Shown here one piece after another: positions 35,654 to 63,225 of a DNA stretch of 64,000 bases. Origin of the DNA: Anthracocystis setariae (Eukaryota; Basidiomycota; Ustilaginomycetes; Ustilaginales; Ustilaginaceae); NCBI GenBank assembly GCA_928724745.1, contig CAKMXJ010000010.1, positions 744,001 through 808,000 on the forward strand. The letters are read 5' to 3'. The position numbers and the translations under genes were made by a program. How positions within the stretch are numbered: position 1 is the stretch's first letter; every line of letters starts with the position of its first letter. The notes under the pieces are model-generated. The model was not told where the DNA came from and did not search any database. It worked only from the letters and a program-made list of their open reading frames with translations.

Positions 35654-36093
35654 ATGCGTAGTAAGTACTGTTCCGGGACCCGAGGTACGAGGCAGGGACT
35701 GATCACTGACATCTTTTGCCTTTCTCATTTGAACGCAGCAACCCGATCTTCCACCCGGCGCGGTGGTCCCGACTCTGGGGTCGCGGGAGGCTCTGCCCCC
35801 GCCCCCGAAAATGTAATGGCTGTGGACGAGTCCCGGGGTGTTAGTGCCCCGGAGGTTGTGGACGAGTCCCGGGGAGTGAGTGCCCCGGAGGTCGTGGACG
35901 AGTCGGGCCGATACGTGGCCCAAGAGGGAGACGTGGTCTCCCTGTATGCGGACGAGTCCCCCGCTCGTGAGGGCGGGGAAGCTGGAGCCGATTTGATCCC
36001 GGCTTCCAGGGTCGTGGACGAGTCCCCGGCGCGGAACACATCTCCGCGCCGGGAAGATGGGCAGCATGCTCCCGGGCTCCCGGGCCAGGATGC
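35654..36093 (+). pseudogene. Antisense six-Cys ORF of element D, 5' part (interrupted by element A)
   Basis: A 7-nt first exon (ATGCGTA, 35654-35660) is followed by a 78-nt GTAAGT...GCAG intron, and exon 2 starts at 35739. The protein begins TTRSSTRRGG and contains a repeated acidic VDES motif (VDESRGVSAPEV twice, then VDESGR, ADESPAR, VDESPAR). At codon GAT GC(C) the reading is cut by element A; the same GATGC resumes the frame at 54366. It is one of four antisense genes in this nest. Function unknown; the cysteine part lies in the 3' piece. Confidence 0.7.
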
Positions 36094-37207
36094 TGTCAGC
36101 GGTCGGGCGCCTGGTAAATAGGCCGATCTTGTTTCGAGAGCGGTGCGGTCCTGTTGGGCTGGGCCGCCGAGTTTGGGTTACGCGCCTGTGCAACTGGGAA
36201 GTACGAGGTGGGTTGCGCAGATACGTCGGCGGTCCGATAAAGACGACTGGGCCGCACTCGACTCGGCGGCGGTGGAGTGTGGGCCTCTCAACCGCGTTCG
36301 ACCTATTACCGACTGACGCTGTTGGCGCTCCGTTCAGCGGCAGCACGGCGTACTCGGTATTACGGTGTGTTAGCTTGGTGTCCCGCGAGCGCTCTTGACG
36401 AGACAGGAAGCTGTTTAGATGGTTAGGTGAACACTGGGAGTGATCACCAAGCTGTTACGGCGATGGCGTAGGGCCTGCCGTCCCGATGTCAGCTTGTAGG
36501 CAGCGTTTACGCGCTGCGGTGTCGATACCGGTACCGACGAGGTCTAGCTGTTCTCCGACTTGAACGGAGGCACGCGAGGAAGCTGCAATGCTACTGTATT
36601 GCAACTTACTAAACTAGTTACTGGAATGATCGTGAAGACGTCGTTAAGAATAGATACTGAGCTGAAGACTGTGTTTGTAAGAAGTAGAGTGGATGAGGAG
36701 CTCATCCACTACGAGCCAGGTGAGGAGACATTAAGTATGTCCGCTCCAAGCCCCTATGGCAAGGTCGATCCGGCGCTAGCCTATTGTCTAGCTGCACGGC
36801 CTGCGTGTGCGCATGTACTGACCGCGGCACAAGCAGCTGATCACCTCCAAGCCTCTGAGAGCATCTGAGATGGTGTCCCTCACCTGCTGATCTCCTCGAG
36901 ATGGCGTTTGTCGCGATCCGGCGTCTCTGCGCTGTCGAACGGCCGCCATCCGATCGCTATGGGCAAAATCGGCTGAAAGAGACTCTTTGAGCCGCACTCA
37001 CTTCGACGGCGGCCGAAAAGCGTATTTTCCACCGCTCCAACTTTACCCCCCGTGAGTAACGCCACTGCTAAATTCGGCGCACTGCGGGTCACGTACCTCC
37101 CCTCACCCGAATGCGAGGGCGGTCGACCGTAGCCCTCTTAACCGCGCTGGGGCCGAAGGCGGCCGTAAAACCAGTTTTCCGCCGCCTCGGCTTCGCTGCC
37201 TGTAACA
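36094..37207 (-). mobile_element. 3' LTR of element A
   Basis: 1114 bp, plus-strand ends TGTCAGCGG...CCTGTAACA. The polypurine tract CGGAAGGGGGGTAA (minus strand) lies directly right of 37207. It contains the hairpin GTGGATGAG-GAG-CTCATCCAC near 36689-36709. Confidence 0.92.
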
Positions 37208-37253
37208 TTACCCCCCTTCCGAGAACCGAGCTCCTGCAAGGTGAAATGAAATG

Positions 37254-37413: not shown

Positions 37414-39035
37414 ATGGCGCCCAACAAGAAGACTTCGACTGCGCCTGCTGTCCCCTCACGTCGGTCAGCACGGCTCGCCAAGGCGTCGGCTGACGCCGAT
37501 ACCCCCTCCACCCCATCGTCCGGCACCGATCAGGCCCCGGAGGCGCCTGCCAGCGTCACCACACCCGCCGTCGTCATCGCTGCCACAGCTGCTGTGGATG
37601 CGCCCGACCCCGTGGCTGTGGTTGCTGCTGCTGTCCCATCCGATGCAGTAGCCGTGACTGCCGCTGCTGCCGCGCCGGACACCATGGCTGTGGCCGCTGT
37701 GACTGCCGCGCCCGATGTTGTGGCTGTAGCTGCTGTTGCTGCCACGCCTGATGCCATTGCGCCGCCTACTGGTGTCGTCAGGCCAGTCGCCGTGACCCCT
37801 CCTCGAGTTGAGATTCCTGCTCGCGTGGTCGGTTCTCCCCTAGAAGCATTGTTCCTTGGTCCGTCGCCGCAGTCGCCATTGTCAAGTGCATCGATCTCAC
37901 CGCCTCGCTCGCCGGTCTACGTCCGTACTTCGCCCGAGCTATACGCACCACCCACCCCTCCGGCGAGGTTTACGGCCGAGGAGTTGCGTTCGATGACGAG
38001 CGCTCAGCTTCACGAGCACGGTTTGACGCCGGCCTCCCCCGCGGAGCCTCGCTTGCCGGCCTATGGTGCTGGAGCGTACGAGTCTGCTGGTCCCGGGCCG
38101 GCCGACACACTTAGCGACTTCCGTGAGTCATCCAACCGCCCGTCGCCTGATCTTGGCCTATCACTCGGATCGCCCGGCCGCCGAACGCCTGAGTTCGGCC
38201 CGCCGCCCATTCGCCGCGCCGAGGACGTGGTGCTGCAGCGTACAGGTCCGCGCAAGCCCACTCTGGTCGAGATGCTGGAGTGGACGGAGCGATACACCGC
38301 CCCTGCGCTGCTCATCGCGATCGTCAACGAGGCTTGGGACCGCGAGTGGCAACTTGACGATGCCGGCAGGGTCTGGTTGCACCGAACGATGGTGCGACGC
38401 TTGACCGAAGGTAGTTCGCCGTGGCCGAACTACAGCTGCAAGCATTGTGCAGACCTCGATGTCCCGTAAGTATCCTTCTGGATGTGAGTGGTTCGGTCAG
38501 TACTGACACTTTACCTCTTCTTTTGCCTGGAACCAGATGTTTTCCGGTCACCTATGGTGATCCGACTGGACCTCGTCCCCGCCCTGCAGCTTCGTCGTGC
38601 TGCCATTGCCTGACGACCAAAAAGAAGTGTGGCGGCCGCGAGATCTGGCGCGCCACACGCCACGAGTACGTCGGCGATAGCCCCCACTCAACGTTGGCTA
38701 CGAACGAGCGGGCTGTGGTGCGTGCCCACCTCACGTACCCTGGTGGTCCTGGTTTGGGTGCTGTGCGTCGTCGTGATCGCCTGGTGGACTGGTTCAAGGA
38801 GCGAACCTTCCACCTCGACGCTCGCGATGCCTTCTTGACAGCGGGCACGATCGGTACGCAAGTTCGCGAGACCCTGGCGCGGTACCATCGTGAGAATCGT
38901 TCCTTGCTTGGCCAGTATCTGCCGTGCGAGGTCATGGAGGAGGAGCCGAACTTCGAGGGTCTTGGCTGGTTCGTAACTAGCCGTGGCGACGACGAGGAGG
39001 AGGTACGATACCACCGCCCTGAGGTCTTCCGTTAA
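37414..39035 (+). CDS. Antisense six-Cys protein of element A (spliced, intact)
   Basis: Exons 37414-38465 and 38537-39035, intron 71 nt (GTAAGT...CCAG), give 516 aa. The N-terminal half is Ala/Val/Pro-rich low complexity (VAVVAAAV... ~60-130) with SPPRSPVYVRTSPELYAPP. The conserved part holds CX2CX6C in SCKHCADLDVPC (the intron falls between the second and third Cys) and, ~20 residues on, CX2CX6C in CCHCLTTKKKC. That is a six-cysteine set spaced like an elongated Zn2Cys6 cluster. It is followed by a charged domain (VRRRDRLVDWFKERTFHLDA ... CEVMEEEP...). It reads antisense to pol, convergent with it (pol stop at 39246). The element B homologue is close to identical over exon 2. Zinc or nucleic-acid binding is inferred; no match to a named family recognised. 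Confidence 0.75.
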
Positions 39036-39245: not shown

Positions 39246-42200
39246 CTAAATTGCCTGCCGCTTTCGAGCGGTTCGGAGTCGTCCCCCCCGCTTCTCCTCA
39301 TACTCCTGAATGAGGTCTGGGCAGGCGAGGAGCTCGACATACTCCCAAGAGGCTTGCTCCTCCGGGTAGCCCTTCCAGAGGACGCGGTATTGCAGTCGGC
39401 CGTTAACGGCGCGGTGTCCCGTGATAGCTTCGACCTCGTACTCGAGGTCTTCGTCGTGCAGCGGCGGCACCACCGCGCGCTCATCCCGTCCAACGAGCTC
39501 GCTGGACCTCCGCTTCTCGAGCATCGAGACGTGGAAAACGTCGTGGACACGGAGCAAAGTCGGTAATTGGAGGCGGTATGCTCTGGCGCCGATGCGCTCG
39601 ACGATGGGGTACGGCCCGGCGAACCGGGTGTCGAGCTTGGGACTCGGTCGGCGAGTTTTCCAGTTGCGTCGGTTGACGTAGACGAGCTCTCCAACTTTGA
39701 ACTCAACGTCAAGATGCTTCTTATTGTACTGCTCGACCGCACGAGCCTGAGCCGACCGGACTTGGTCTTGCAGATAAGTAGTGAGCTCTGCTTCTGAACG
39801 AGCGAACTCAGCTCGTTGAGGGTCAAGCACGCCAGCGCGCTCTGGTACTTCTGGATGCATCTTGGGATTCCACCCGTAACACGCAAAGAATGGTGAGACA
39901 CCGAGACTGCTGTGTACCGCGTTGTTGTAAACAAACTCGGCGTTGGCCAATAGCAAAGCCCAGTTGTTCTGCTCGTAATTGCAATACATACGGAGGTATT
40001 GCTCGACGACTTGGTTGACCCGTTCCGTTTGACCGTCTGTCTGAGGATGGTACGCCGTCGATAGAGAGTGCTGAATAGAGAGAGAGTCGGTGTACCGCTT
40101 CCAGACCGCGGAGATGAACTGTCGGCCGCGATCAGAGACAATATGCTCAGGTGTTCCGGACCGGCGGAACACATGTTGCTGGAGGAGCTCGGCGGTGCGA
40201 GCCGATGTGATAGTCTTGACCGTCGGCGTGAGTACAGCGAGCTTGGTGAGCCGATCGACGACGACCAGAATCGAGTCGTAGCCGTCAGAGAGTGGCAGGC
40301 CCTCGATAAAGTCCATGGATACCGATCCCCATGGTCTTGAAGGAGTGGCCAACGGCTTGAGCAGGCCGTACGGCCGATGACGAGGTGCCTTATAACGGGC
40401 GCAGACCGGACAGCTCGCTACATAGTCGGCGATCCAAGCACGCATTCCCGGCCACCAGTAATGACGCTGGGTGAGGGCTAGCGTTGTGTCACGACCCAGG
40501 TGTCCGGCGGTGATGCCGTCGTGGCACTGTGTCATCACCATGAAGCGCAGGTGCTCCACCGAGAGTGACTGCTCACTGACAATCTTGGCCGAGCGTGTGT
40601 CACGACGACCTTGCTTTCCGGTCAGCGTGACCTTGGGGATGACAAGGCGGCCTTCGCGATGCCAAATACCGTCTTTGACTTCGAAAGGCGTGTGCTTGTG
40701 GAGCGCTTGGAGCTCGGTGTCGAGCGGTTGGAAAACGCGAACTAGCTCCGGCAGGCCGCCCCTTACTATTGCCGCCATCGACGACCGCGGCTGACTGGCC
40801 CCTGATAAGCCGCCGTCGGTTCCAATTCGGCTCGGTAACTGATTTTCCGGTAATACAGTTCCAAAAATGCGGGGGTGGAGGAGCTGCCTTACGTTATGCT
40901 CGCGCTCTTTTGCTGATGGCTCCATGTCACTGCGTCGTGTCAAGGAGTCGGGCTCGCCCGCCTTGTCTCCTGGTCGGTACTGAACAACGAAATCGAAGTC
41001 GGCCAGTAACACGGCCCACCGAGCCTGTCGACCACTGATGCGACGTTGCACTGTGAAGTACTTGAGCGCCTCGTGATCCGAGAGAACGGAGAACCGAGAC
41101 GGGAGCCCCGCCAGCATGTGTCGCCACTGATGGAGGCAGGCGACGATGGCGAGGAGCTCTTTATCATGGATCTCGTAGTTTCTCTCAGCTGACGTCATCT
41201 TGCGCGAGTAGAAGGCCACGGGATGCCACCTGTTCTCTGTCTCCTGTTTGAGGACGCCGGCGATGGCGAAGTCGCTGGCGTCAGTCTCGAGGCGGGTTGA
41301 CTTGTGATAATCGAAATGTCGCAGTACTCCGGCTGTCGTGAAAGCCTCGATGAGCTTGTGGAAAGCCTCCACTGCCTCCTCCGACAACTGGAACTTCTTG
41401 AAGCGCTCCGTAGGCTTAATGAGCGATGTGAGAGGCTTCGAGATGCGAGCGAAGTGTGATATGAACCGACGATAGAAGTTCGCGAACCCAAGGAAGCGCT
41501 GGATATCATGAATCGTCTGTGGCAACGGCCACTCTTTGATGATTCGTACCTTTTCTTGATCCATTTCGATACCTCCTGGCGTGATGACATAGCCGAGGAA
41601 CTCGACAGTGTCTGTGTGGAAGATGCACTTCGACAGCTTGGCAAAGAGACGGTTCAATTTCAAACGCCGCAGTACTTCGCGGACGTGTTCGACATGCTCA
41701 TCCTCGTTGTTGCTGAAGATGAGGAAATCATCGAGATAAACCACAACATAGATTCCGATGATGTCGCGGAAGATGCCGTTGACGAGCGACTGGAAATGCG
41801 AGGGCGCGTTTGCCAGCCCGAAAGGCATGACGAGATACTCGTACAGGCCAAGCTGAGTGCCGAACGCCGTCTTCCATTCATCACCGTCAGCTATACGTAC
41901 CAAGTTGTACGCTGCCTTGAGATCGAGCTTGCTGAACACCTTAGCATTCCTCAGTAAGAACAGTTGCTCCTCGATGAGCGGCAGCGGCGCTCGATTCTTG
42001 ACAGTGATCTCGTTGAGGCCTCGGTAGTCGACGCAGAGGCGGAGGCCGCCGTCCTTCTTCGGCACAAACAGCACTGGAGAACGAGCTGGGCTCTTTGATG
42101 GCCGAATGAACCCCTTTGCAAGGTTCTCGTCGAGGTACTTGCGAAGTTCCTCCATCTCCTTAGGCCCCTTGAGGTAAAGTGGGCCCTGAGGAGGTTTGGC

Positions 42201-42328
42201 TCCCGGTACGAGCTCGATGGGCAAATCCGTGCTGGTGCGAGGAGGCAGCTTGTCGGCCTCGACTTCACTGAATACCGCCTCGAGATCCCGATATTGCTCT
42301 GGAATCGACACTGGATTAGCTGGCTTGG
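39246..42328 (-). pseudogene. Element A pol, 3' part: RT, RNase H, integrase, chromodomain (split by element C)
   Basis: Open from the element C junction to stop 39248-39246. Reverse transcriptase with VPKKDGGLRLCVDYRGLNE and YLDDFLIFSNN, RNase H (LETDASDFAIAGVL ... SRKMTSAERNYEIHDKELLA), integrase zinc region (HX..H..CPVCARYKAPRHRPYG), the D,D-35-E core (SMDFIEGLPLSDGYDSILVV; SDRGRQFIS; YHPQTDGQTERVNQVVEQYL) and a C-terminal chromodomain (YEVEAITGHRAVNGRLQYRV ... EEQASWEYVELLA). It ends shortly after EYEEKRGG. The 5' portion is at 50852-51541. Confidence 0.9.
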
Positions 42329-42763
42329 TGTTAAGCGCCAAGGGTCTGACAACCTCCTGACTGTGCGGCGAGGCACGCGGTGTGCGAGGCTTGGGCTTGA
42401 GGGCGCGTGGCGGGAGTGGTGGCCACGAGAGTCACTGGGCACGATCCTGAGGTTAACGGTTCTACCATTGGGTCTGATATTCGCTATTACTCAAGGTAAC
42501 TAAGAATACAATCGACGAGCGGACGACAGGGAGGTGACGCGCGGCTGCTCACTTATAAGCATCACGCGTACCGCGCGGCGCGCAACGGAACGTAGGCCGC
42601 GCGCGGTCCTGAATCGCGGGGTGGACCTTGTCATGTCACGCGTGGCGCGCCCCCTCCTTCACGGCGTACCGCGCGGCGCGCCCTAGTGGCCACACATCGC
42701 GCGGCACGCGCCTGGCGGCACTCCCGTGGCGCGCTGGCTGGGGCCCCCCATCCAGCCGTAACA
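42329..42763 (-). mobile_element. 3' LTR of element C
   Basis: 435 bp. Differs from the 5' LTR at 42436 (T for C) and 42467 (A for G), both CpG transitions. TTATAA at 42553-42558; TACAATCGAC at 42507-42516 marks the presumed R start. Confidence 0.93.
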
Positions 42764-43040: not shown

Positions 43041-44903
43041 ATGACCACCAATAGTAAGTATGAGCACGTTTGGGGTACGGCACCTGCGGCGAGGCGTTGA
43101 CTGACGCGTGGCTCTGAATTTCCGGTTCCTGTGCCTGGCCAGCCGACAAGCCTTCGAACGAGAAGACGCGCGCTGAAGCTGAGGCCGCGTCCACCCTTCG
43201 TGCAATCTTGGCCGTGGTCCCCGATCCTCGGGCAAGCAGCGATACCGCCGTCCCGCCCCCGGTGGTGGCTGTGGCCGGGCCCCCTCCAGCTGCACCCTCT
43301 CCGACCGACAAGACCGGTAAGTAGCCCCTTCCCCGGGCGTTTTGATGCGGTGCACGTACTGACTCCGATCTTCCCGGTGGGGATGCGGTGTCTGACAGTA
43401 CCCGTAACGCCGAGCGCTCCTGTGATCGAGATCCCTTCTTCGCCGCCGCCCCAGGTTTGCGATGGTGCACCTTCCCCCAAGGTGCGCGACCCACCTTCCC
43501 CCAAGGCTCGCGACCGAGCTCCCTCCTCCGTCGACGATCGTGCCGACCAGAGTCAATTCCGCTATCAAGTGTGGGAGATCCTGCCGTGGGGCGAGCGGAG
43601 CTGCCCTATCGTGGACTCCCTGATGCGGGAGCGCAAAGACCAGCCCATCGGCGACGTCCCCTTCGTGGTACGTCTCATCAAGGCCGCTCTGGTGCTCAGC
43701 GATCCCGACTGCGAGGAATTCATGGCACCCTGCTATGCATGCGAGCATAAGGGCTGCGACGCCGCGGCATGCCACGTGGATCCCGAGCGTGGCGCCGTGA
43801 CGGGCAAGCGCGACGCTGGCGCCAGGATCCCCGAAGAGATCGCCCAAGCCTTCGAGGGCATGCCGACGCCTTGCAGCGCGTGCGGCACGAAGCGTAAGTG
43901 CGACTGGCGCGGCAGGATCCCGTGGCTGGGGAATCGGCTCGAGGGCCCGTGGCTGATGGAAGCCTACCTCTGGATGCGCGTCCTGGGCCACCGTCCCAAC
44001 CCCGCCCTGACCCCGTCGATGGTGCCGGTCGGCTCCCTCCCGCCCTACATGGAGACTGAGCGCGCCGCTGTCGCGCAGCGCTACGCCAGGCGCCGTTGGC
44101 CGCGTACCAGTCGTCGGACTAGGGCCGACCAAAGCGGTGACAACGAGAGCAGTGAGAGCGATGGCGAATCCGTGGAGGAGGAGCCCGAGCCCGCTACCCC
44201 CAGCCCCCGCGCGACCCGTGCTACCCGAGCCCGGGCTGCCGACCGTCCCCGTCCTCTGAGCTCGCCTAAGGCTCCTCGTCCCCGCCGCGCTGCCGCGCGT
44301 AAACCCCTCAGCGCCGCTCCGGGGGTGAGCGCTACCATCCGCGCGACGCCGCGTAGTCGTGACGAGGAAGCTGGGGGGTCGTCGTCCCTGGGTTCGAATC
44401 CGCCGGCGCCATCGGCTTCTTACCGGAAGCAGGCGGTGCACCTCCAGCGCAGCACGGAGGCCATCGAGCGCGCGCTCGACGATCTCAAGGTTACGATTCG
44501 GCAGTGCGCCGCCGCTGGCCTGCTGGAGGGTATGGACGTGCAGTCTTCCACCATGAAGCGGCACCTGATGATGCTGGAGTCTACGCCCGCCGCCCTGCGA
44601 ACGACGCTGCACGAGCTTGTAGACTACTGGCGGGTGAGCGGTCCCGCGTATCTGATTGCCTCGGACTCGTCGGACTCGGACAGCGCGTCCCATGTTGCCG
44701 CTGCTCGCGAGCGTGTTGGGCGCCTTCTGGATCGCGCGCCACCGGCTGGCGTCCCGCACCCGGCTGCTGACTCTCCCGTCGCTGCGGTACCCGCGCGCCG
44801 CGCGTCGCCCTCGTCTCCCTTGGCGGCGGAGGCTCCTCGCACGCCAAAGCGTCCGCGCCGGCAAGCGCTTCTTGATGGTGGAGAGGGCGCGGCTCCGGCC
44901 TGA
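43041..44903 (+). CDS. Antisense six-Cys protein of element C (three exons, intact)
   Basis: Exons 43041-43053 (13 nt: ATG plus three codons plus one base), 43143-43316 and 43399-44903; all junctions are GTAAGT...AG with matching phase; 563 aa. After a proline-rich start comes RYQVWEILPWGERSCPIV, then a Cys-rich region CYACEHKGCDAAAC ... PCSACGTKRKCDWRGR (CX2CX4CX4C, then CX2CX5C) and WLMEAYLWMRVLGHRPNP. The latter matches element D antisense protein (CDWQGR ... LMEAYLILRSRGQRPNPG), proving common ancestry. The distal part is basic/acidic low complexity, then a helical segment (QAVHLQRSTEAIERALDDLK). It lies between the 3' LTR and the pol end, against pol. A nuclear zinc-binding role is only inferred. 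Confidence 0.75.
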
Positions 44904-50378: not shown

Positions 50379-50405
50379 TGTTTGAGCGTGCGGGGTGACG
50401 GGTAG

Positions 50406-50415
50406 GTCGATTGTA
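50406..50415 (-). other. Primer binding site of element C, complementary to its own LTR
   Basis: One base inside the 5' LTR. Minus-strand TACAATCGAC pairs perfectly (10/10) with GTCGATTGTA in the LTR (50604-50595), which sits ~40 nt after a TTATAA box. No tRNA 3'-end complement starting TGG abuts the LTR. Confidence 0.65.
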
Positions 50416-50416
50416 A

Positions 50417-50851
50417 TGTTAAGCGCCAAGGGTCTGACAACCTCCTGACTGTGCGGCGAGGCACGCGGTGTGCGAGGCTTGGGCTTGAGGGCGCGTGGCG
50501 GGAGTGGTGGCCACGAGAGTCACCGGGCACGATCCTGAGGTTAACGGTTCTACCGTTGGGTCTGATATTCGCTATTACTCAAGGTAACTAAGAATACAAT
50601 CGACGAGCGGACGACAGGGAGGTGACGCGCGGCTGCTCACTTATAAGCATCACGCGTACCGCGCGGCGCGCAACGGAACGTAGGCCGCGCGCGGTCCTGA
50701 ATCGCGGGGTGGACCTTGTCATGTCACGCGTGGCGCGCCCCCTCCTTCACGGCGTACCGCGCGGCGCGCCCTAGTGGCCACACATCGCGCGGCACGCGCC
50801 TGGCGGCACTCCCGTGGCGCGCTGGCTGGGGCCCCCCATCCAGCCGTAACA
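50417..50851 (-). mobile_element. 5' LTR of element C
   Basis: 435 bp, TGTTAAGCGCC...GCCGTAACA on the plus strand. TTATAA at 50641-50646 is the likely promoter of gag-pol. Confidence 0.93.
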
Positions 50852-53250: not shown

Positions 53251-53251
53251 A

Positions 53252-54365
53252 TGTCAGCGGTCGGGCGCCTGGTAAATAGGCCGATCTTGTTTCGAGAGCG
53301 GTGCGGTCCTGTTGGGCTGGGCCGCCGAGTTTGGGTTACGCGCCTGTGCAACTGGGAAGTACGAGGTGGGTTGCGCAGATACGTCGGCGGTCCGATAAAG
53401 ACGACTGGGCCGCACTCGACTCGGCGGCGGTGGAGTGTGGGCCTCTCAACCGCGTTCGACCTATTACCGACTGACGCTGTTGGCGCTCCGTTCAGCGGCA
53501 GCACGGCGTACTCGGTATTACGGTGTGTTAGCTTGGTGTCCCGCGAGCGCTCTTGACGAGACAGGAAGCTGTTTAGATGGTTAGGTGAACACTGGGAGTG
53601 ATCACCAAGCTGTTACGGCGATGGCGTAGGGCCTGCCGTCCCGATGTCAGCTTGTAGGCAGCGTTTACGCGCTGCGGTGTCGATACCGGTACCGACGAGG
53701 TCTAGCTGTTCTCCGACTTGAACGGAGGCACGCGAGGAAGCTGCAATGCTACTGTATTGCAACTTACTAAACTAGTTACTGGAATGATCGTGAAGACGTC
53801 GTTAAGAATAGATACTGAGCTGAAGACTGTGTTTGTAAGAAGTAGAGTGGATGAGGAGCTCATCCACTACGAGCCAGGTGAGGAGACATTAAGTATGTCC
53901 GCTCCAAGCCCCTATGGCAAGGTCGATCCGGCGCTAGCCTATTGTCTAGCTGCACGGCCTGCGTGTGCGCATGTACTGACCGCGGCACAAGCAGCTGATC
54001 ACCTCCAAGCCTCTGAGAGCATCTGAGATGGTGTCCCTCACCTGCTGATCTCCTCGAGATGGCGTTTGTTGCGATCCGGCGTCTCTGCGCTGTCAAACGG
54101 CCGCCATCCGATCGCTATGGGCAAAATCGGCTGAAAGAGACTCTTTGAGCCGCACTCACTTCGACGGCGGCCGAAAAGCGTATTTTCCACCGCTCCAACT
54201 TTACCCCCCGTGAGTAACGCCACTGCTAAATTCGGCGCACTGCGGGTCACGTACCTCCCCTCACCCGAATGTGAGGGCGGTCGACCGTAGCCCTCTTAAC
54301 CGCGCTGGGGCCGAAGGCGGCCGTAAAACCAGTTTTCCGCCGCCTCGGCTTCGCTGCCTGTAACA
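53252..54365 (-). mobile_element. 5' LTR of element A
   Basis: 1114 bp. Differs from the 3' LTR at 54070 (T vs C), 54095 (A vs G) and 54272 (T vs C), all in CpG. Hairpin GTGGATGAG-GAG-CTCATCCAC at ~53847-53867. Confidence 0.93.
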
Positions 54366-54818
54366 GATGCCAGCACCGCGGTGGCTCCCCCCAGTGGGGT
54401 CACCCCCGGATTCTCGAACGTGGCCGCCCCGACTCCCGGGGCTGGCGTACCAATTGGGGATCCCGGGAGGCTGGCGGAGTTGGTCCGGGAGGTTCGAGCA
54501 CGGGGTCCCCCTCCCGCTTCCGAGGGGTACGGGCACTGTTGGTCTTGCGCCAACAGCAAGAAAAAGCCCCACCCGCAGTGCTCCCTGGGATTTGCGCACC
54601 GGGACGTCGGGGGTCCGGGAGACCCCCGGGACGGTCAGCCTGCCGCGTGTGAGAGGTGCCATGCCGCGGGGTATCCCTGCGACTGGCAAGGTCGCGTCCT
54701 GGACATTACGGGGCGCCAGGAGGGTGGCTTCCTGATGGAGGCTTACCTTATCCTCCGATCCCGGGGACAACGTCCTAACCCCGGGATGCCTTTTACCTCG
54801 TTCTCCGCGGCTGACCTC
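54366..54818 (+). pseudogene. Antisense six-Cys ORF of element D, continuation (cut again by element B)
   Basis: 151 codons in frame with the piece ending at 36093, starting at the second GATGC duplication (D-A-S-T-A-V). It carries CWSCANSKKKPHPQC and CERCHAAGYPCDWQGR (CX2CX10C ... CX2CX6C) and FLMEAYLILRSRGQRPNPG, homologous to element C antisense protein. Element B begins right after codon CTC at 54818; the remaining coding part must lie past 64000. Confidence 0.75.
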
Positions 54819-55931
54819 TGTCACGGGCGGCGATGCCGGGGCGGCGGAAAACTAGTTTTTCGACCGCCTTCAGTTTGAGCGCGGCTAGGCAAGTGGTTGA
54901 TTGGCCGTCGTCGCAGTCGGAGGAGAGGAGGTAAGCTGCCGGCAGTGCGTCGTACCGAGCATTGTTGTTACCATAGGCAGCGAAGTCGAAGCGGTGGAAA
55001 AACCGTTTCGCGGCCGCCGTCAACGCGAGCGCGGCTCAGAAAGTTATTTTCGGCCGCTTTTGCTCATAGTGGTCGGATCGCGGCTGTTCAACGTCGCAGA
55101 GACGCCGGATCGCGACAACACCACCTCGAGGCGAGCAGCAGTTGAGGGACACCATCCCAGGCGCTCTCAGAGGCTTGGAGGTGATCAGCCGCCTGTACCA
55201 CGGCCAGAACAAGCACACACGCAGGCCGTGCAGCTAGACAATAGGCTAGCGCCGGATCGGCCTTGCCATAGGGGTTTGGAGCGGTCCTACTTAATGTCTC
55301 CTCATCTGCTTCGAAGTGGATGAGCTCCTCATCCACTCTACTTCTTACAACACCAGTCTTTAGCTCAGTATAGCTCCTTAACGTCGTCGTCACGATCATT
55401 CAGTATCTAGTAAAGTAAGTTGCAATTACAGTAGCATTGCAGCTTCCTTGCGTGCCTCCGTTCAAGTCGGAGAACAGCTAGACGTCGTCAGTACCTGTGA
55501 CGACACTACAACACATAACCGCTGCCTACAAGCTAATACCTAGACGTCAGACTCTTGGACGTCGCCGTAACAGCTTGGTGATCACTCCCAGTGTTCACCT
55601 AATCATCTAAACAGCTTCCTGTCTCGTCAAGAGCGCTCGCGGGACACCAAGCTAACACACCGTAATACCGAGTACGCCGTGCTGCCGCTGAACGGAGCGC
55701 CAACAGCGTCAGTCGGTAATAGGTCGAACGCGGTTGAGAGGCCCACACTCCACCGCTGTCGAGTCGAGTGCGGCCCAGTCGTCGTTATCGGACCGCCGAC
55801 GTATCTGCGCAACCCACCTCGTACTACCCAGTTGCGCAGGCGCGTAACCCAAACTCGGCGGCCCAGCCCAACAGGACCGCACCGCTCTCGAAACAAGATC
55901 GGCCTATTTACCAGGCGCCCGACCGCTGACA
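54819..55931 (+). mobile_element. 5' LTR of element B
   Basis: 1113 bp, TGTCACGGGC...CGCTGACA. Hairpin GTGGATGAG-CTC-CTCATCCAC at ~55317-55337. ATCCACTCTA at 55331-55340 is the site complementary to the PBS and so the presumed RNA 5' end. Confidence 0.92.
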
Positions 55932-55932
55932 T

Positions 55933-55942
55933 TAGAGTGGAT
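55933..55942 (+). other. Primer binding site of element B, complementary to its own LTR
   Basis: TAGAGTGGAT, one base after the LTR end; perfect complement of ATCCACTCTA at 55331-55340. Confidence 0.65.
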
Positions 55943-55968
55943 CGTTCAAGCAGCGCCCCGTACTCGAC

Positions 55969-57642
55969 ATGACCGACGCAGCCGCGCCGCGAGGCAGTAC
56001 ACCTCGCAGTCGGACGTCGTCGCCTCCTGCAGCGAACCCAGAACCATTGCTGCAAGGCCTAATCGAGGACATACGACTTCAGATGAAGGAGGTCCATAAC
56101 CAACGCATGGCTTACGAAACTAGTCGTCAGGAGGCCATGCTGAAAGAGAGCCAAGACCGACTCCGCTTCCAGGAGAAGCTCTACTTACTCATGGACCAGG
56201 CGACCGGCTCCAAGCCGTCCCCCACGCCGTCGACAGCTATCCCAGCGTCGTCGCGACCTCTAACGGCGCATCAGGAGGAGATCCTCGCGCTCAAGGCCGA
56301 GATCGCAGACCTCCGGGAGCTGATCAAGCCAGCTCTACGCCGAGGGGGTGAGCCGGAGGTCGCCGCCGTCGCCCCTGGGCACGAATTGCACGAGGAGAGG
56401 TCGTACAGCATGCATGATGACCCTCGGCGTTCTGCTCCCCTGGGCAGCTCCACTCCCGTCCGCCGGTCAGCGGTGTCCGGCCTACGCTGGAACGACGAGT
56501 ACAGTCAAGAGGACTTGTATTCGACGTCCACTGGCCGACGCCCCGCCTGGGACCACCCTACGATGCCGACACGGGAAACAAACTTCGAGCGCAACACTAC
56601 CAAGAATGATCCGAAGCTAGATTTCCCCGACTGGCAAGAGGATGACCTGGAAATGTCACTCATTCAGGTCGAGGCCTGGTTCCGATACCAAGAGATGGCC
56701 GACGGCCGCAAGAGGATTCAGTTCCTAGGGCCGCATCTCAAGGGTCGGGCTCTCACTTGGTACCGGTCGAAGCTACGAGCCGATCCCTCACAGTCGGGTG
56801 CGTTGTTCGGTGATTGGGCGCTCTTCGTTAACCGGCTCAAGCAACTCTATGGGGTACATGACGAGAAGCTAGACGCTTTCAATAAGCTCTACGCCCTGCG
56901 CCTTGCCAGCGACAAGCCAGGCGCCGCAAGCGAGTATGTTGAGGCGTTCAGGACCCTCGAAGAGCGCGCCGGCATGAGCGACGAACACCTCAAGCTCCAC
57001 CTTTTCCGACGAGGTTTGACGACAGCTCTCCAGCGTCAGTTCGAACGCACGTCACCGAAGACGATGTGGGAATTCTATCGCGAGGTAGAAGATTTGGACC
57101 GCAATCGGGTCCTAGCGCAGCAGACGTACCAGGGCGGTGCAGCGACCCTCACTCAGCCGACCTCAAGTTCACTGCGGTACGATTTCCCCTCGGCGGCTGG
57201 AAGAACTCACGCCCCGACCGCCGACGGTGCAAAGGCGGCCGGACGGGTACTGGCACCGTCCGCCGTGGAGGCACGGCCGGCTGCAGCCACGCCCTCCCCA
57301 GCGCGTCCTCGGCCGTTACCGCCCCATCTGGCCCAACGCCTGCCCGTCGTCTACGATCGTTCGCCGACGACTTTCGGCGCCACCACGTGCAAGCGATGCG
57401 GTAAGGAGGGTCATTGGGTGCGTGACTGCCCGCAGCCGGCCCGGGAGACGGCCACCGGAGCGTCACGACGACCTGGACCTCGAGCCTACGTGGCACAAGA
57501 GGATACCGGGGCACAAGAGGACGTCGAAGACCAAGATGAGGAGGAGGCACTTGGTTATGAGGATCTTCCACCCCTTGCCGACGACGACGGGGTCGACGAG
57601 GATCACGACGGCGAGGGAAACGGGCGTGGGACAACCGAATGA
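55969..57642 (+). CDS. Element B Gag
   Basis: 557 aa. ATG 55969 (CGACATGACC), TGA 57640-57642. Same layout as element A Gag: coiled-coil-prone start (EEILALKAEIADLRELI), capsid region (WFRYQEMADGRKRIQFLGPH, LYGVHDEKLDAFNKLYALRL, EYVEAFRTLEERAGMSDEHL), CCHC knuckle CKRCGKEGHWVRDC at ~474-487, and an acidic tail. It assembles the virus-like particle and binds RNA. The last codons overlap the pol start (ATGA). Confidence 0.93.
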   Translation: MTDAAAPRGSTPRSRTSSPPAANPEPLLQGLIEDIRLQMKEVHNQRMAYETSRQEAMLKESQDRLRFQEKLYLLMDQATGSKPSPTPSTAIPASSRPLTAHQEEILALKAEIADLRELIKPALRRGGEPEVAAVAPGHELHEERSYSMHDDPRRSAPLGSSTPVRRSAVSGLRWNDEYSQEDLYSTSTGRRPAWDHPTMPTRETNFERNTTKNDPKLDFPDWQEDDLEMSLIQVEAWFRYQEMADGRKRIQFLGPHLKGRALTWYRSKLRADPSQSGALFGDWALFVNRLKQLYGVHDEKLDAFNKLYALRLASDKPGAASEYVEAFRTLEERAGMSDEHLKLHLFRRGLTTALQRQFERTSPKTMWEFYREVEDLDRNRVLAQQTYQGGAATLTQPTSSSLRYDFPSAAGRTHAPTADGAKAAGRVLAPSAVEARPAAATPSPARPRPLPPHLAQRLPVVYDRSPTTFGATTCKRCGKEGHWVRDCPQPARETATGASRRPGPRAYVAQEDTGAQEDVEDQDEEEALGYEDLPPLADDDGVDEDHDGEGNGRGTTE

Positions 57643-60600
57643 TGGCTTGTCTTGCCCTACAACCGCCCTCGCCATCACCGTGTATATATCGGAACTGTTC
57701 GTTGTGTTTCTCAGCCAACTCCAATCTATCGGTCCTCGAAGTTACCGGCACCATTAACGGGTGCCCGGCTCGCATCCTGGCCGACACCGGAGCTTCACTG
57801 TCTCTTCTCTCAAGCGCTTACGCCCGTACATATTGTATTAACATCAAGACTACTCCCCAGCCCACTTCAGTCCATGGCGTCAGCGGCCATCGTCTAGCCA
57901 TCACTCACGATGCGACGCTGACGGTCAACATCGGCGAGCAAACTTTACCGCCGCTGCAAGCCTATGTCGCGGACATCAGCGATTTCGATCTCATTATCGG
58001 CTACCAGGAACTTCGCACACTTCAGCCGAGGATCGACTGGATTTCGGGCCGAATTAAATTCACCGCGGCGCGGCGGGATCCACTGAGCCGCGTTGAACAC
58101 GACCTCGGCCCGTCACTTAGTGTCACCAGCCGCGCCTTACCCTCTAACGAGCCGGGTATCACGGTCCACGGAAACGAGTTCGTCTCATTCCAACAGCTCG
58201 TCCAAGCGTCCTATCAGGACGGACCGATTGGCATTATGCTGATCGATGCTCCACCCTCCTCGCTGCCAAGCTTCGGCTTCGTCCCTACCGGCGAAGACAA
58301 GGGCATCGAGATTGAGGTGGAGCCGGAACCACCGACTCCAGTGTCGATCCCGGAGCAATACCGGGATCTCGAGGCGGTCTTCAGTGAAGTCGAGGCCGAC
58401 AAGCTGCCTCCTCGCACCAGCACGGACTTGCCCATCGAGCTCGTGCCGGGAGCCAAACCTCCGCAGGGCCCACTCTATCTCAAGGGGCCTAAGGAGATGG
58501 AGGAACTACGCAAGTACCTCGACGAGAATCTTGCGAAGGGATTCATTCGACCATCAAAGAGCCCAGCGCGCTCGCCAGTGCTGTTTGTGCCGAAGAAGGA
58601 CGGCGGTCTCCGCCTCTGTGTCGACTACCGAGGGCTCAACGAGGTCACTGTCAAGAATCGAGCGCCGCTGCCGCTCATCGAGGAGCAGCTGTTCCTCCTA
58701 AGGAATGCTAAGGTGTTCAGTAAGCTCGATCTCAAGGCGGCCTACAACCTGGTACGCATAGCTGACGGCGATGAATGGAAGACGGCGTTCGGCACCCAGC
58801 TCGGCTTGTATGAGTACCTTGTCATGCCTTTCGGGCTGGCAAACGCGCCCTCGCATTTCCAGTCTCTCGTCAATGGCATCTTCCGTGACATTATCGGCGT
58901 CTATGTCGTGGTGTACCTCGACGACTTCCTCATCTTCAGTAACAACGAGGATGAACATGTAGAGCACGTCCGCGAGGTATTGCGGCGCCTGAAAGCGAAT
59001 CGGCTCTTCGCCAAGCTGTCGAAGTGCATTTTCCACACAGACACCGTTGAGTTCCTGGGCTACGTCATCACACCAGGAGGCATCGAGATGGACCAGGAGA
59101 AAGTACGAACCATCAAGGAGTGGCCACTGCCTCAATCGATTCATGACATCCAACGTTTCCTGGGATTCGCGAACTTCTATCGCCGGTTCATCTCGCACTT
59201 CGCTCGCATCTCGAAGCCCCTCACATCGCTCGTCAAGCCTACGGAGCGCTTCAAGAAGTTCCAACTGCCGGAGGAGGCGGTAGAGGCGTTCCACAAGCTC
59301 ATCGAGGCCTTCACGACGGCCGGAGTATTGCGACACTTCGACTATCACAAGCCAACCCGCCTCGAGACCGACGCCAGCGACTTCGCCATCGCCGGCGTCC
59401 TCAAGCAGGAGACGGAAAAGAGATGGCATCCAGTAGCTTTCTATTCGCGCAAGATGACGTCTGCCGAAAGAAACTACGAGATTCACGACAAGGAGCTCCT
59501 CGCCATCGTTGCCTGCCTCCATCAGTGGCGACATATGCTGGCTGGGCTCCCGTCTCAGTTTGCTGTTCTCTCAGATCACGAGGCGCTCAAGTACTTCACC
59601 GTGCAACGCCGAATTAGCGGCCGACAGGCTCGTTGGGCCGTGTTACTGGCCGACTTCGACTTTGTTGTTCAGTACCGACCAGGAGACAAGGCTGGCGAGC
59701 CCGACTCCTTGACACGACGCAGTGACATGGAGCCGTCGGCTGAAGAGCGCGAACATAACGTACGGCAGCTCCTCCACCCCCGCATTTTTGGAATTGCATT
59801 ACCGGAAAATCAGTCACCGAGCCGAAGTGGATCCGACGGCGGCTTAGTGGGGGCCATTCGGCCGTGTTCGTCGATGGCGGCAATAGTAAAGGGCGGCCTG
59901 CCGGAGCTAGCCCGCATTTTCCAACCTCTCGACACCGAGCTCCAGGCGCTCCACAAGCGCATGCCTTTCGAGGTCAAAGACGGTCTCTGGCACCGCGATG
60001 GCCGACTCGTCATTCCCAGGGTCACGTTGGCCGGAAAACAGGGCCGCCGCGACACACGCTCAGCCAAGATTGCCAGCGAACAGTCGCTTTCAGTGGAACA
60101 CTTGCGTTTCATGGTGATGACACAATGTCACGACGGCATCACCGCCGGCCATCCAGGTCGGGATGCAACGTTATCGCTCACCCAGCGGCATTACTGGTGG
60201 CCGGGAATGCGTGCTTGGATCGCCGATTACGTAGCGAGCTGCCCTGTCTGCGCTCGCTACAAGGCACCCCGTCATCGGCCGTACGGCCTGCTCAAGCCGT
60301 TGGCCACTCCCTCAAGACCATGGGGATCGGTATCCATGGACTTTATCGAGGGCTTGCCACTCTCCGACGGCTACGACTCGATTCTTGTCGTCGTCGATCG
60401 GCTTACCAAGCTCGCGGTGCTCACGCCGACGGTGAAAACCGTCACATCGGCTGGCACTGCTGAGCTCCTCCAGCAACACGTGTTCCGCCGGTTTGGAACA
60501 CCCGATCATATCGTTTCTGACCGCGGTCGTCAGTTCATCTCCGCGGTCTGGAAACGGTACACCGATTTCCACGCCATCCAGCACTCGCTGTCGACGGCGT

Positions 60601-61472
60601 ATCATCCTCAAACAGACGGTCAGACGGAGCGAGTCAACCAAGTCGTTGAGCAGTACCTCCGTATGTATTGCAATTTCGAGCAGGACAACTGGGCCTCGCT
60701 ACTAGCCAATGCCGAGTTCGTCTACAACAATGCGGTACATAGCAGTCTCGGCGTCTCACCCTTCTTTGCGTGCTACGGGTGGAACCCCAAAATGCATCCT
60801 GAAGTACCAGAACGTGCTGGCGTGCTCGACCCTCAACGAGCGGAGTTCGCTCGTTCAGAAGCAGACCTCACAGCTTATCTACAAGACCAAGTACGATTGG
60901 CTCAAACTCGTGCTGTCGAGCAGTACAACAAGAAACGCCTCGACGTCGAGTTCAAGGTTGGTGAACTTGTCTACGTCAATCGACGCAATTGGAAGACTCG
61001 TCGACCGAGTCCCAAGCTCGACACTCGCTTCGCTGGGCCGTACCCCATCACCGAGCGCATCGGCGCCAGAGCGTACCGCCTTCAGTTGCCGGCGTCGCTT
61101 CGCGTTCATGATGTCTTCCACGTCTCGATGCTCGAGAAGTTGAGGTCCAGCAAGCTCGAGGGTAGGGATGAGCGTGTGGCAGTGCCACATCTACATGACG
61201 AAGACCTTGAGTACGAGGTCGAAGCTATCGCAGGTCGCCGTACCATCGCTGGACGGCTCCAATATCGCGTCCTTTGGAGGGGCTACCCTGAGGAACAGGC
61301 CTCCTGGGAGTACGTCGAACTTCTGGCCTGCCCCGATCTCATCCAGGAGTATGAGGAAAAGCGGGGGGGGACGACCTCCTCGAGTAGCGGGGCGGCGGCA
61401 ATCGAATTGGATATCCGACCGCGCTTGATAATTTGGCGGCGTGATGCTGGTTATTCGGCCGCCGTGAATTGA
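57639..61472 (+). CDS. Element B Pol: protease, RT, RNase H, integrase, chromodomain
   Basis: 1277 aa. The start ATG 57639 overlaps the gag stop (A-TG-A), suggesting termination-reinitiation rather than frameshifting. Protease LADTGASLSLLSS (Asp ~49); RT with LCVDYRGLNE and YLDDFLIFSNN (~426); RNase H LETDASDFAIAGVL; integrase zinc region CHDGITAGHPGRD...CPVCARYKAPRH (~825-870), catalytic core MDFIEGLPLSDGY, SDRGRQFIS, YHPQTDGQTERVNQ; chromodomain near residues 1187-1240 (YEVEAIAGRRTIAGRLQYRV, EEQASWEYVELLA). The C-terminal tail after EEKRGG differs from element A because of one extra G in a G-run (61365-61372). All motifs are intact. Confidence 0.94.
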   Translation: MMACLALQPPSPSPCIYRNCSLCFSANSNLSVLEVTGTINGCPARILADTGASLSLLSSAYARTYCINIKTTPQPTSVHGVSGHRLAITHDATLTVNIGEQTLPPLQAYVADISDFDLIIGYQELRTLQPRIDWISGRIKFTAARRDPLSRVEHDLGPSLSVTSRALPSNEPGITVHGNEFVSFQQLVQASYQDGPIGIMLIDAPPSSLPSFGFVPTGEDKGIEIEVEPEPPTPVSIPEQYRDLEAVFSEVEADKLPPRTSTDLPIELVPGAKPPQGPLYLKGPKEMEELRKYLDENLAKGFIRPSKSPARSPVLFVPKKDGGLRLCVDYRGLNEVTVKNRAPLPLIEEQLFLLRNAKVFSKLDLKAAYNLVRIADGDEWKTAFGTQLGLYEYLVMPFGLANAPSHFQSLVNGIFRDIIGVYVVVYLDDFLIFSNNEDEHVEHVREVLRRLKANRLFAKLSKCIFHTDTVEFLGYVITPGGIEMDQEKVRTIKEWPLPQSIHDIQRFLGFANFYRRFISHFARISKPLTSLVKPTERFKKFQLPEEAVEAFHKLIEAFTTAGVLRHFDYHKPTRLETDASDFAIAGVLKQETEKRWHPVAFYSRKMTSAERNYEIHDKELLAIVACLHQWRHMLAGLPSQFAVLSDHEALKYFTVQRRISGRQARWAVLLADFDFVVQYRPGDKAGEPDSLTRRSDMEPSAEEREHNVRQLLHPRIFGIALPENQSPSRSGSDGGLVGAIRPCSSMAAIVKGGLPELARIFQPLDTELQALHKRMPFEVKDGLWHRDGRLVIPRVTLAGKQGRRDTRSAKIASEQSLSVEHLRFMVMTQCHDGITAGHPGRDATLSLTQRHYWWPGMRAWIADYVASCPVCARYKAPRHRPYGLLKPLATPSRPWGSVSMDFIEGLPLSDGYDSILVVVDRLTKLAVLTPTVKTVTSAGTAELLQQHVFRRFGTPDHIVSDRGRQFISAVWKRYTDFHAIQHSLSTAYHPQTDGQTERVNQVVEQYLRMYCNFEQDNWASLLANAEFVYNNAVHSSLGVSPFFACYGWNPKMHPEVPERAGVLDPQRAEFARSEADLTAYLQDQVRLAQTRAVEQYNKKRLDVEFKVGELVYVNRRNWKTRRPSPKLDTRFAGPYPITERIGARAYRLQLPASLRVHDVFHVSMLEKLRSSKLEGRDERVAVPHLHDEDLEYEVEAIAGRRTIAGRLQYRVLWRGYPEEQASWEYVELLACPDLIQEYEEKRGGTTSSSSGAAAIELDIRPRLIIWRRDAGYSAAVN

Positions 61473-61625
61473 CCGCGGTGTGGTGGCATAGGCGATTGGC
61501 CGCCATCGACACCCGTCGCCACACACTCACACTCTTTTCTCAAATCTCAAAGACATCACGACCAATTCATAAGGTTTTCAAGCACAACAGAAGACAACAG
61601 AAACGACTTTGATTGCTAACGACAG

Positions 61626-63225
61626 CTAGCGGAAGATCTCAGGGCGGTGGTACCGCACCTCCTCTTCGTCGTCACCACGGCTCTCCACGAACCAGCCAAG
61701 ACCCTCGAAGTTCGATTCCTCCTCCATGACTTCACACGGCAGGTACTGGCCAAGCAAGGAGCGGTTCTCACGGTGGTATCGGGTTAGAGCCTCACGCACC
61801 TGTGTCCCGATTGTGCCCTCCATCGAGAAGGCATCGCGAGCGTCAAGGTGGAAGGTTCGCTCCTTGAACCAGTCCACCAGGCGGTCGCGACGCCGCACCA
61901 TGCCCAAGCCGGGGCCACCAGGGTACGAGAGGTGGGCACGCACCACAGCCCGCTCGTTTGTGCTCAATGTTGAGTGAGGGCTATCGCCGACGTACTCGTG
62001 GCGTGTGGCGCGCCAGATCGTACGGCCGCCACATTTCTTCTTGGTCGTCAGGCAGTGGCAGCATGACGACGCTGCGGGTCGGGGGCGAGGTCCGGTTGGG
62101 TCACCATAAGTGACCGGAAAGCATCTAGCGAAATCAAGAAAAGACGAGGCAGGCTGTCAGTGCCGTCCGAGCCATTCATGTCGAAAGTGTTACTTACGGT
62201 ACATCGAGATCCGCACAGTGCTGGCAGCTGTAGTTCGGCCACGGCGAACTACCCTCAGTCAAGCGGCGCACCATCGTTCGGTGCAGCCATACCTTGCCGG
62301 CATCGTCGAGCTGCCACTCGCGGTCCCAGGCCTCGTTGGCAATCGCGATGAGTAGAGCAGGGGCGGTGTATCGCTCTGTCCACTCCAGCATCTCGACCAG
62401 AGAGGGTTTACGAGGACCAGTGCGTGACAGCACCACGTCCTCGGGCCGACGAATGGGGGGCGGGCCGATTTCAGGAGTTCGGCGGCCAGGAGATCCTAGT
62501 GGCAGACCGATTTCAGGCGTGTGGGCGAGCCGAGGACTGGCAACCGCCCCAGCGTCATAGACCGGCGACCGAGACTCCATGGGCGGCGAGGCCGGCGTCA
62601 GACCGTGCTCGTGAAGCTGCGCGCTTGTCATCGCACGCAGCTCCTCGACTGTAAACGTCCCCGGGGAGGTGAGAACTTGCGCAGGAGGGGAGGATGGTAC
62701 GTACAGCTCCGGGGAAGTACGCACGTAAACAGGCGAACGAGGCGGTGAGATCGACCCACTCGATGACGGCGATCGCGACGATGGGCCAAGGAACAACGGT
62801 ACCAATGGCGAACCGACCACACAAGATGTCATCCGGACATGTGGCGGGGTCAGGGCGATTGGCACAACAACACCAGTAGGTGCCGCGATTGCGTCGGACG
62901 TGGCAGCAACAGGGGCAATAACCACGGAGTCGGAGGCAGCAGCAACATCTACGGCCATGGCGGTTGGTGCGGCAGCAGCAGCAGTCACGGCCACTGCAGC
63001 CGGTGGAGCTACAGCGGCAGCCACAGTCATGGTATCGGGCGCGTCAACCGCAGCGGCGACGACGACGACAGCAGGCGTGATGACGCTATTGGACTCCGCC
63101 GAGGCTTGACTAGCGCCGGACGACGAGTCGGAGTGTGGATCGGCATCGGGCGGTGGTTTGGCCAGCCGAGCCGACCGACGCGAAGGGACAGCAGGCGCAG
63201 CCGAGGGGTTCTTCTTGGGCGCCAT
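61626..63225 (-). CDS. Antisense six-Cys protein of element B (spliced, intact)
   Basis: Exon 1 is 63225-62198, intron 73 nt (62197-62125, GTAAGT...CTAG), exon 2 is 62124-61626; 508 aa. Exon sizes and the intron site match element A (exon 2 is 499 nt in both). N-terminal low-complexity Ala/Val stretch; then SPPRSPVYVRTSPELYVP, ELRAMTSAQLHEHGLTPASP, LVEMLEWTERYTAPALLIAI, and the CX2CX6C ... CX2CX6C set (SCQHCADLDVPC; CCHCLTTKKKC). Exon 2 differs from element A at only about a dozen residues of 166. Convergent with pol (stop 61472), so it is transcribed against the element. Function unknown. Confidence 0.75.

Follow-up and report, generated by a model that had tools for sequence, protein, structure and literature searches.

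Four gypsy retrotransposons of the basidiomycete Anthracocystis setariae, nested at one locus, carry reading frames in antisense orientation beside the 3' long terminal repeat (LTR): do these frames make up a gene, does the gene belong to the elements, and what could its product do? The locus was analyzed in a stretch of 64,000 nucleotides (the window; contig CAKMXJ010000010.1, positions 744,001 to 808,000) of assembly GCA_928724745.1, a genome of 21.5 Mb in 36 contigs. The elements are called A, B, C and D, and are located by window coordinates. The antisense gene is linked to the elements of one clade of chromodomain Ty3/gypsy retrotransposons. It has none to two short introns by gene model, begins some 150-290 nt away from the inner edge of the 3' LTR, and is under strong purifying selection, on a six-cysteine domain.

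Antisense genes in the nest

D is the outermost element; A and B are each inserted in D, and C is inserted in A (Table 1). The insertion of A is marked by a 5-bp target duplication, GATGC, recognized by inspection. The two LTRs are 99.7% identical in A and 99.5% identical in C. Reverse transcriptase (RT), RNase H, integrase and a chromodomain are present in the pol of A, B and C; the pol of D was found in other genomic copies, its RT part being 57% identical to that of A.

In A, B and C the antisense gene lies between the chromodomain-bearing pol and the 3' LTR, and the same arrangement is found in other copies of D. A first-pass annotation of the window had proposed this position, and GT-AG introns, for all four elements; position and introns were recovered in the gene models, D having in the window only the first part of the gene, disrupted by the insertions of A and B. 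The distance from the ATG to the inner edge of the 3' LTR is 147 nt in B, 207 nt in A, 278 nt in C and 286 nt in D. The genes of A, B and C terminate short of pol, with no overlap. In 21 of 23 D models the sequence TATATAA[AG] is found 87-90 nt before the ATG.

Splice signals are conserved within families. In 18 of 20 A-family loci GTAAGT, CTRAC and YAG are found at the same site, the other two loci being unmatched by the anchor; one A-family model (L076) uses a later acceptor than the rest. The C gene has two introns by model, of 89 and 82 nt, and GT[AG]AGT, CTGAC and the acceptor are kept for both in 12 of 12 aligned copies. The D model has one intron of 78 nt. The spliced frame is found in 23 of 29 D copies, with introns of 75-81 nt; one of the 23 (L053) ends after 249 residues. 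Intron retention would stop the reading at residue 16-17 in 10 of these 23 copies; in the remaining 13 the intron can be read through in frame, and splicing is not forced. A fourth family, E, resides outside the window, has a pol 75% identical to that of A, and lacks the intron. In E the reading VPCF continues across the site of the A splice junction (31% identity over 197 residues, E 9e-17), which supports the splice of A and makes the intron an exact difference between families. Intron gain or loss is thereby open to study.

Two further sequence features were observed around the antisense genes. Three tandem copies of about 30 nt (GCATCTTCCAGCCGCTGTG...), a possible regulatory repeat, are located at 37257-37346, between the 3' LTR of A and the antisense ATG. 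Past the antisense stop, on its 3' side, D copies (for example L040, from 2994) feature an inverted repeat of 8 bp, CCGGGGTC...GACCCCGG, in which a G-C pair is changed to A-T on both sides between subfamilies, and which is followed in some copies by AATAAA. From its sequence, this repeat may be an RNA hairpin or a palindromic protein site.

Selection

The ratio of nonsynonymous to synonymous substitution rates (dN/dS) was calculated by the pairwise Nei-Gojobori method, the most diverged pairs being those with dS 0.4-1; pairs are not independent. The ratio is 0.24 in D (211 of 406 pairs, 29 sequences), 0.19 in the A-family (85 of 105 pairs among the 15 of 21 sequences which gave a clean spliced model) and 0.14 in C (33 of 105 pairs, 15 sequences). 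The first-pass annotation had set this comparison in advance; the ratios in these pairs are well below 1, and stops are not found in most copies. Selection is uneven along the protein. In 50-residue windows over the cysteine domain dN/dS drops to 0.05-0.08 in D, 0.04-0.15 in C and 0.01-0.04 in A, and is equally low (0.02-0.04) in the C-terminal region of the C protein, helical by low-confidence prediction, while N-terminal and some tail regions reach 0.5-1.0. The closest D pairs (dS <0.02, n=19) have a dN/dS of 0.62, as expected if selection acts on lineages as long as they transpose and is relaxed after insertion.

The other five frames show dN/dS above 1, or contain stops. Frame -1, which shares third positions, has dN/dS of 0.23-0.29 and 2.5-5.9 stops per copy; frame +0 has 0 stops per copy in ungapped alignments. 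The window is GC-rich and contains 102 stop-to-stop frames of at least 150 residues, as one would expect if the antisense frames were a chance product of base composition. Among the six frames, only this one combines dN/dS well below 1 with absence of stops; an artefact of this kind is refuted by the dN/dS results and the frame control, and its probability is negligible.

The same data bear on the view that the antisense RNA, and not a protein, acts, by forming double-stranded RNA with the genomic RNA and placing the element under RNA interference. Such control was suggested for plant elements in a review (PMC7264820). Purifying selection at the codon level in the correct frame, conserved splice sites and the absence of stops in frame +0 are at odds with it. 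RNA as the sole function is largely refuted already, and is regarded as very improbable.

Copies and linkage to pol

After merging pieces, relatives of the antisense gene amount to 85 copies in four families: 25 in the A-family (B included), 19 in C, 38 in D, these three numbers being lower bounds, and 3 in E. A convergent gypsy RT is found at regular spacing within 6 kb of 72 of the 85 (22/25 in A, 2/3 in E, 16/19 in C, 32/38 in D). Thirteen copies have no near RT. Four of them (C8:371483, C15:133571, C20:449797 and C21:300553) are convergent with an RT that lies 11.1-11.7 kb off and is assigned to no other copy, as a nested insertion would give; one is the D copy of the window, and one (C20:1963) is at a contig start and adjoins a pol fragment. 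The remaining seven fit none of these cases. For one of them, an A-family copy at C28:1003944 (two matching pieces, G000:C28:1003942-1005495), no RT match was found within 300 kb; it may be a remnant, an element devoid of pol, or a gene standing alone.

A relative of the gene was detected beside 70 of the 85 best RT matches (at least 77.9 bits), and beside 2 of 48 lower-scoring ones, which probably belong mostly to other gypsy clades. The statement that every gypsy element carries such a gene, made for the nest, holds there; these counts do not extend it to the whole genome. The gene is antisense between pol and the 3' LTR, and is present in most copies of its families, the features by which aORF-3R elements are recognized.

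Fungi typically have Zn2Cys6 regulators, and introns give a gene a host-like look; a host gene could have been captured as a passenger, once or several times, or host genes could have been hit by insertion of the elements. Against this origin, which we consider very unlikely, the gene occupies the same place in all four families, convergent RT accompanies it as described, and the divergence of the C and D proteins points to long residence. The first-pass annotation had thought of a captured regulator, and this proved unsupported, no cellular homologue having been found. Searches of a protein collection with the C alignment, residues 260-515 of A and the D alignment returned no homologue at E 0.01, in runs with no positive control and against a database of unchecked fungal content; the top word-sharing candidates scored were 7995 for the C alignment and 7989 for the D alignment.

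The six-cysteine proteins

A six-cysteine pattern common to all elements had been noticed in the first pass. Six cysteines are common indeed, while the spacings, counted on translations, differ between A, C and D. In A the pattern is C-x2-C-x6-C-x19-C-x2-C-x6-C; the corresponding spacings are x2,x10,x22,x2,x6 in D, x2,x4,x38,x2,x5 in C and x2,x6,x18,x2,x7 in E. The kinship of the C and D proteins, proposed from the string CDWxGR...LMEAYL...RPNP, was confirmed (hhalign 1.9e-14, 33% of positions identical in 159 aligned columns); six cysteines, two histidines, W, GR, LMEAYL and RPNP are common to both (15 and 17 rows aligned). By their alignment (9e-17) the A and E proteins are homologous as well. 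The A/E and C/D groups match best around the second CxxC (hhalign p 0.0013-0.031, probability at most 18.5%), which suggests, and does not prove, a common origin. The N-terminus of the E protein contains repeated RRSARL-type peptides. Exon 2 had been taken to be conserved in A and B in excess of the LTRs; identity is 93% for the protein but 86% for the DNA, similar to the LTRs (87%), and the claim was given up.

The cysteines recall a zinc cluster. The consensus of Gal4-type Zn2Cys6 regulators is C-x2-C-x6-C-x(5-12)-C-x2-C-x(6-8)-C. The first-pass idea of a stretched Zn2Cys6 cluster is right for the half-sites of A and E, which read C-x2-C-x6(7)-C, and for a lysine-rich loop found in one half of A, C and D. 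It is not borne out by profiles, none of the zinc-cluster type being matched to E 10 (DUF7547, below cut-off, is alone at 0.057), and the consensus as a whole does not fit. The loop between halves is 18-19 residues long in A and E, and C and D deviate more; over all families it spans 18-38 residues vs. 5-12 in the regulators.

Family-specific words

Short words containing CGG or CCG are concentrated in the elements. CCCGGGA is found 40 times in 5.95 kb of D, counted on pieces of two copies (noncoding DNA, antisense gene and pol), and ranks 1 of 140 words of equal composition (mean 1.98); CCGCGCG is found 38 times in 8.52 kb of C, and ranks 1 of 35 (mean 8.74). Both ranks are descriptive and no test, since the ranking was made on the very sequences that had supplied the words.

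Each word is nearly confined to its family in noncoding DNA. CCCGGGA occurs 7 times in 0.96 kb of D (7.3 per kb; first-order Markov mean 0.57, maximum 6 in 200 runs), and CCGCGCG 14 times in 1.19 kb of C (11.8 per kb). Both are missing in the noncoding parts of A and B; the D word is missing in those of C and E, the C word is missing in D and found once (0.84 per kb) in E. Flanking DNA of the window contains 0-0.2 words per kb. Around genomic copies, CCCGGGA was found 1-6 times in the upstream 700 nt of 24/24 D copies, and 1-7 times in the downstream 400 nt (pol end included) of 23/24; CCGCGCG was found 2-8 times upstream of 13/14 C copies.

Synonymous-codon shuffles (500) show that in D the excess extends to coding DNA: CCCGGGA is seen 18 times in the antisense gene (4.5 expected, maximum 13) and 15 times in pol (4.7 expected, maximum 13). 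For a related word, CGCGCGGC, the count in gag-pol of C is 9 (2.3 expected, maximum 8 in 500 shuffles). In the genome CTCCCGGGA counts 404 occurrences vs. 68 for the reversed word, which contains no CpG, and 83 of the first 100 places listed for it are in D spans, about 2% of those contigs (the size of one contig was approximated). For ACCGCGCGGC the corresponding counts are 76 vs. 25. Zn2Cys6 proteins typically recognise pairs of CGG triplets (PMC5559640), and the enriched words are a further point of likeness to them.

A regulator of its own family?

The antisense gene, its position, the selection acting on it, the conservation of its splice sites, its linkage to pol and the word saturation in D and C are established. 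By analogy, the chances look about even that the gene encodes a zinc-cluster DNA-binding regulator of its own family, acting in the manner of VANC on VANDAL elements, which are DNA transposons, unlike the LTR elements described here. The gene would be transcribed away from the 3' LTR, from a promoter of its own, to which the TATA box would belong in D. Its introns would outlast retrotransposition: the genomic RNA corresponds to the opposite strand, and would be unspliced at those sites. From the mechanics of retrotransposition, an intron lying in the sense of the genomic RNA is expected to be lost, and an antisense one to be kept. The product would be a zinc-cluster DNA-binding factor, which would enter the nucleus, bind the CGG-containing words that saturate its own family (evident in D and C, faint in A and B, not observed in E), and switch on or keep open the members of that family. 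Transcription, splicing itself, zinc, nuclear entry, binding, and the effect with its sign are steps that we infer. On this view the D protein should prefer TCCCGGGA-like DNA, the C protein should prefer CCGCGCGG-like DNA, and neither should bind the word of the other. Anti-silencing would be a plausible role, the more so in view of the family-specific word saturation.

Several observations weigh against the proposal of a self-targeted zinc-cluster factor. The words enriched in A and B, CAGCCGC and CGGCGGC, show a much lower excess, and none of the enriched words was seen in E. In C coding DNA the excess of CCGCGCG is modest (p 0.018 for gag-pol and 0.038 for the antisense exon), and codon shuffles reveal no excess of CCGCGCGG. 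CCCGGGA fills both pol and the antisense gene of D, on both strands, so that a mutational or conversion bias could explain the saturation. The words were chosen and ranked on the same DNA, the copies share a common ancestry, and the control with the reversed word is free of CpG. Among Pfam results at E 1 and to E 10 the antisense proteins had no match above cut-off, DUF7547 (0.016-0.057) and SOG2 (0.46) being the only ones returned, and none to PF00172, although the HMMER filters drop most weak matches. Among PDB sequences nothing usable was found, the best of four matches (E 0.18) being an iron-sulphur protein. AlphaFold2 models of the cysteine region have mean predicted local distance difference test (pLDDT) values of 47.5 and 61.5, below 50 over most of the region, and the single Foldseek match of the model (E 8.4) was counted as nothing. 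Conservation of the words at degenerate sites was dropped as evidence: fourfold G/C sites within words differ less (0.070 vs. 0.174), but 5 of 12 shuffled-word controls were equal or stronger.

The protein could be an accessory factor of replication or integration, such as a nucleic-acid chaperone or a partner of the chromodomain integrase in nuclear import or targeting, and no transcriptional regulator. Linkage to a chromodomain pol, and selection strongest in the cysteine domain, would suit such a factor, and cysteine clusters can also bind RNA. It would leave the family-specific saturation with CGG words unexplained, and the gag of A and B already features a CCHC knuckle; we rate it as unlikely, a little below the repressor considered next.

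The main alternative sign of the regulatory mechanism is that of a repressor or copy-number limiter. The antisense protein would damp transcription from the 5' LTR, via the element or via host factors, and impose copy-number control or latency. The word data suit a repressor as well as an activator, and in human T-cell leukaemia viruses (HTLV) the nuclear regulator HBZ is made from spliced antisense transcripts, while APH-3 and APH-4 inhibit LTR activity (PMC10186651). HBZ, however, is a bZIP protein driven by the LTR, whereas a cysteine domain is found here, and the TATA box of D lies outside the LTR; selection this strong would also be harder to maintain on a factor that lowers the spread of its own copy. 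A negative regulator is considered unlikely, though not negligible.

For the self-targeted regulator a wider reading can be put forward, tentatively and with clearly less confidence than the regulator itself: each family would have its own CGG-based address word, spread over the whole of its DNA, and its own antisense spliced zinc-cluster factor, the two co-evolving as a system of self-recognition independent of VANC. Just as tentative is the corollary that the intron-containing gene would persist in such a system only by virtue of being antisense, and would serve anti-silencing or activation. With dozens of copies, in four families and two groups of proteins, and with candidate DNA targets in two or more of the families, the question can be tested by binding assays. 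The intron is a natural marker, which would distinguish a spliced antisense message from unspliced genomic RNA made from the same DNA.

Features of the window

Table 1. Elements and antisense genes, in window coordinates except for family E
Feature	Position	Strand	Remarks
D 3' LTR	35019..35368	-	TGTTA...TAACA, termini placed by inspection; then a run of C, the polypurine tract in complement
TATATAAAA	35567..35575	+	87 nt before the ATG of the D antisense gene; not part of the LTR
D antisense gene, exon 1	35654..35660	+	ATGCGTA; two codons plus a single base
D exon 2, left part	35739..36093	+	ended by the A insertion
D exon 2, continuation	54366..54818	+	cysteine domain; ended by the B insertion; first 5 nt are the repeated target GATGC
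A 3' LTR	36094..37207	-	
A antisense gene, exon 1	37414..38465	+	ATG; variable N-terminus, then conserved region and first CxxC
A intron, 71 nt	38466..38536	+	GTAAGT...CTGAC...CAG; unspliced reading stops at the donor
A exon 2	38537..39035	+	C, then CxxC-x6-C with KKK; conserved C-terminal region
A pol, stop-to-stop frame	39246..42431	-	RT, RNase H, integrase, chromodomain; split by C
A 5' LTR	53252..54365	-	
C 3' LTR	42329..42763	-	
C antisense gene, exon 1	43041..43053	+	MTTN
C exon 2	43143..43316	+	
C exon 3	43399..44903	+	cysteine domain, LMEAYL/RPNP, C-terminal region predicted helical
C gag-pol, stop-to-stop frame	45381..50519	-	with chromodomain
C 5' LTR	50417..50851	-	
B 5' LTR	54819..55931	+	
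B gag and pol frames	55936..61472	+	with chromodomain
B exon 2	61626..62124	-	
B intron, 73 nt	62125..62197	-	
B antisense gene, exon 1	62198..63225	-	
B 3' LTR	from 63372	+	extends beyond the window end
E antisense gene	L082:1321-3210 (G000:C18:239720-241609); also L083		single uninterrupted frame without the intron of A

Other sequences reside beside the nest. A frame with an OrsD-type domain and a DEAD/Helicase_C helicase frame are adjacent at 22261-27145 (+). Tandem repeats are found at 31493-33616, between the helicase and the nest, include AT-rich units of about 34 nt (32587-33064), and are followed by a direct repeat (33871-34192 and 34697-35018). An isolated LTR fragment of the C type (about 93%) lies at 20580-20835, inversely oriented.

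Comparison with known systems

The gene brtn of Boty-like elements, known from Botrytis and Sclerotinia, was reportedly described by Zhao et al. in Virology in 2011. Boty is a fungal gypsy element, and a Boty-like element with a CHROMO domain in gag-pol is on record (PMC4227169). The additional gene is antisense between pol and the 3' LTR, as in A, B and C (PMC7264820), so that the first-pass statement that nothing like this was known in fungi went too far (PMC7264820, PMC4227169). The comparison with brtn is one of described arrangement.

In plants, LTR retrotransposons with antisense genes have been known since the 1990s (references in PMC7264820), and together with fungal Boty they make the position of the gene a known one (PMC7264820, PMC11963269, PMC8365987, PMC4227169). 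The aORF-3R elements include Grande with gene23, RIRE2, and Retand with TRP28 (PMC7264820, PMC11963269). Grande encodes a nuclear protein and has a promoter of its own for it, and DNA binding was proposed for TRP28 (PMC7264820, PMC11963269); Retand belongs to a non-chromovirus lineage, unlike A, B and C. TRP28 corresponds to PF04195 (Transposase_28), to which, as to bZIP, the antisense proteins had no match among Pfam results to E 10. The papers of 2020 and 2025 still call the function of the plant genes unknown (PMC7264820, PMC11963269), and in their main texts the word intron is absent. The word antisense is likewise absent from the main texts of a survey of fungal LTR elements (PMC3248453) and of the Tcn1 chromovirus paper (PMC2864245). 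Among the titles and opening lines of abstracts listed from the open-licence literature, none concerned a spliced antisense gene or a cysteine-cluster gene in a fungal gypsy element. Conserved introns, a cysteine domain in two protein groups and family-specific words were not met in the literature searched.

HBZ/APH of the deltaretroviruses is a spliced antisense gene near the 3' LTR whose product is a nuclear regulator (PMC10186651). The likeness is one of description. HBZ is a bZIP protein with its promoter in the LTR.

A possible functional parallel is offered by the anti-silencing protein VANC of VANDAL elements in Arabidopsis. VANC21 binds a dense, family-specific motif (PMC5735166), and a short dense motif specific to the encoding family is what was seen in D and C, weakly in A and B, and not in E. 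VANC proteins combine conserved domains with variable, tandemly repeated regions, which we count as a further likeness (PMC5735166). VANDAL motifs are mainly noncoding, whereas the D word is found in coding DNA too, and the word zinc is absent from the VANC paper (PMC5735166). If the words are indeed addresses read by the antisense proteins, the gypsy elements of A. setariae would have a retrotransposon counterpart of the self-recognition system of VANC in plants.

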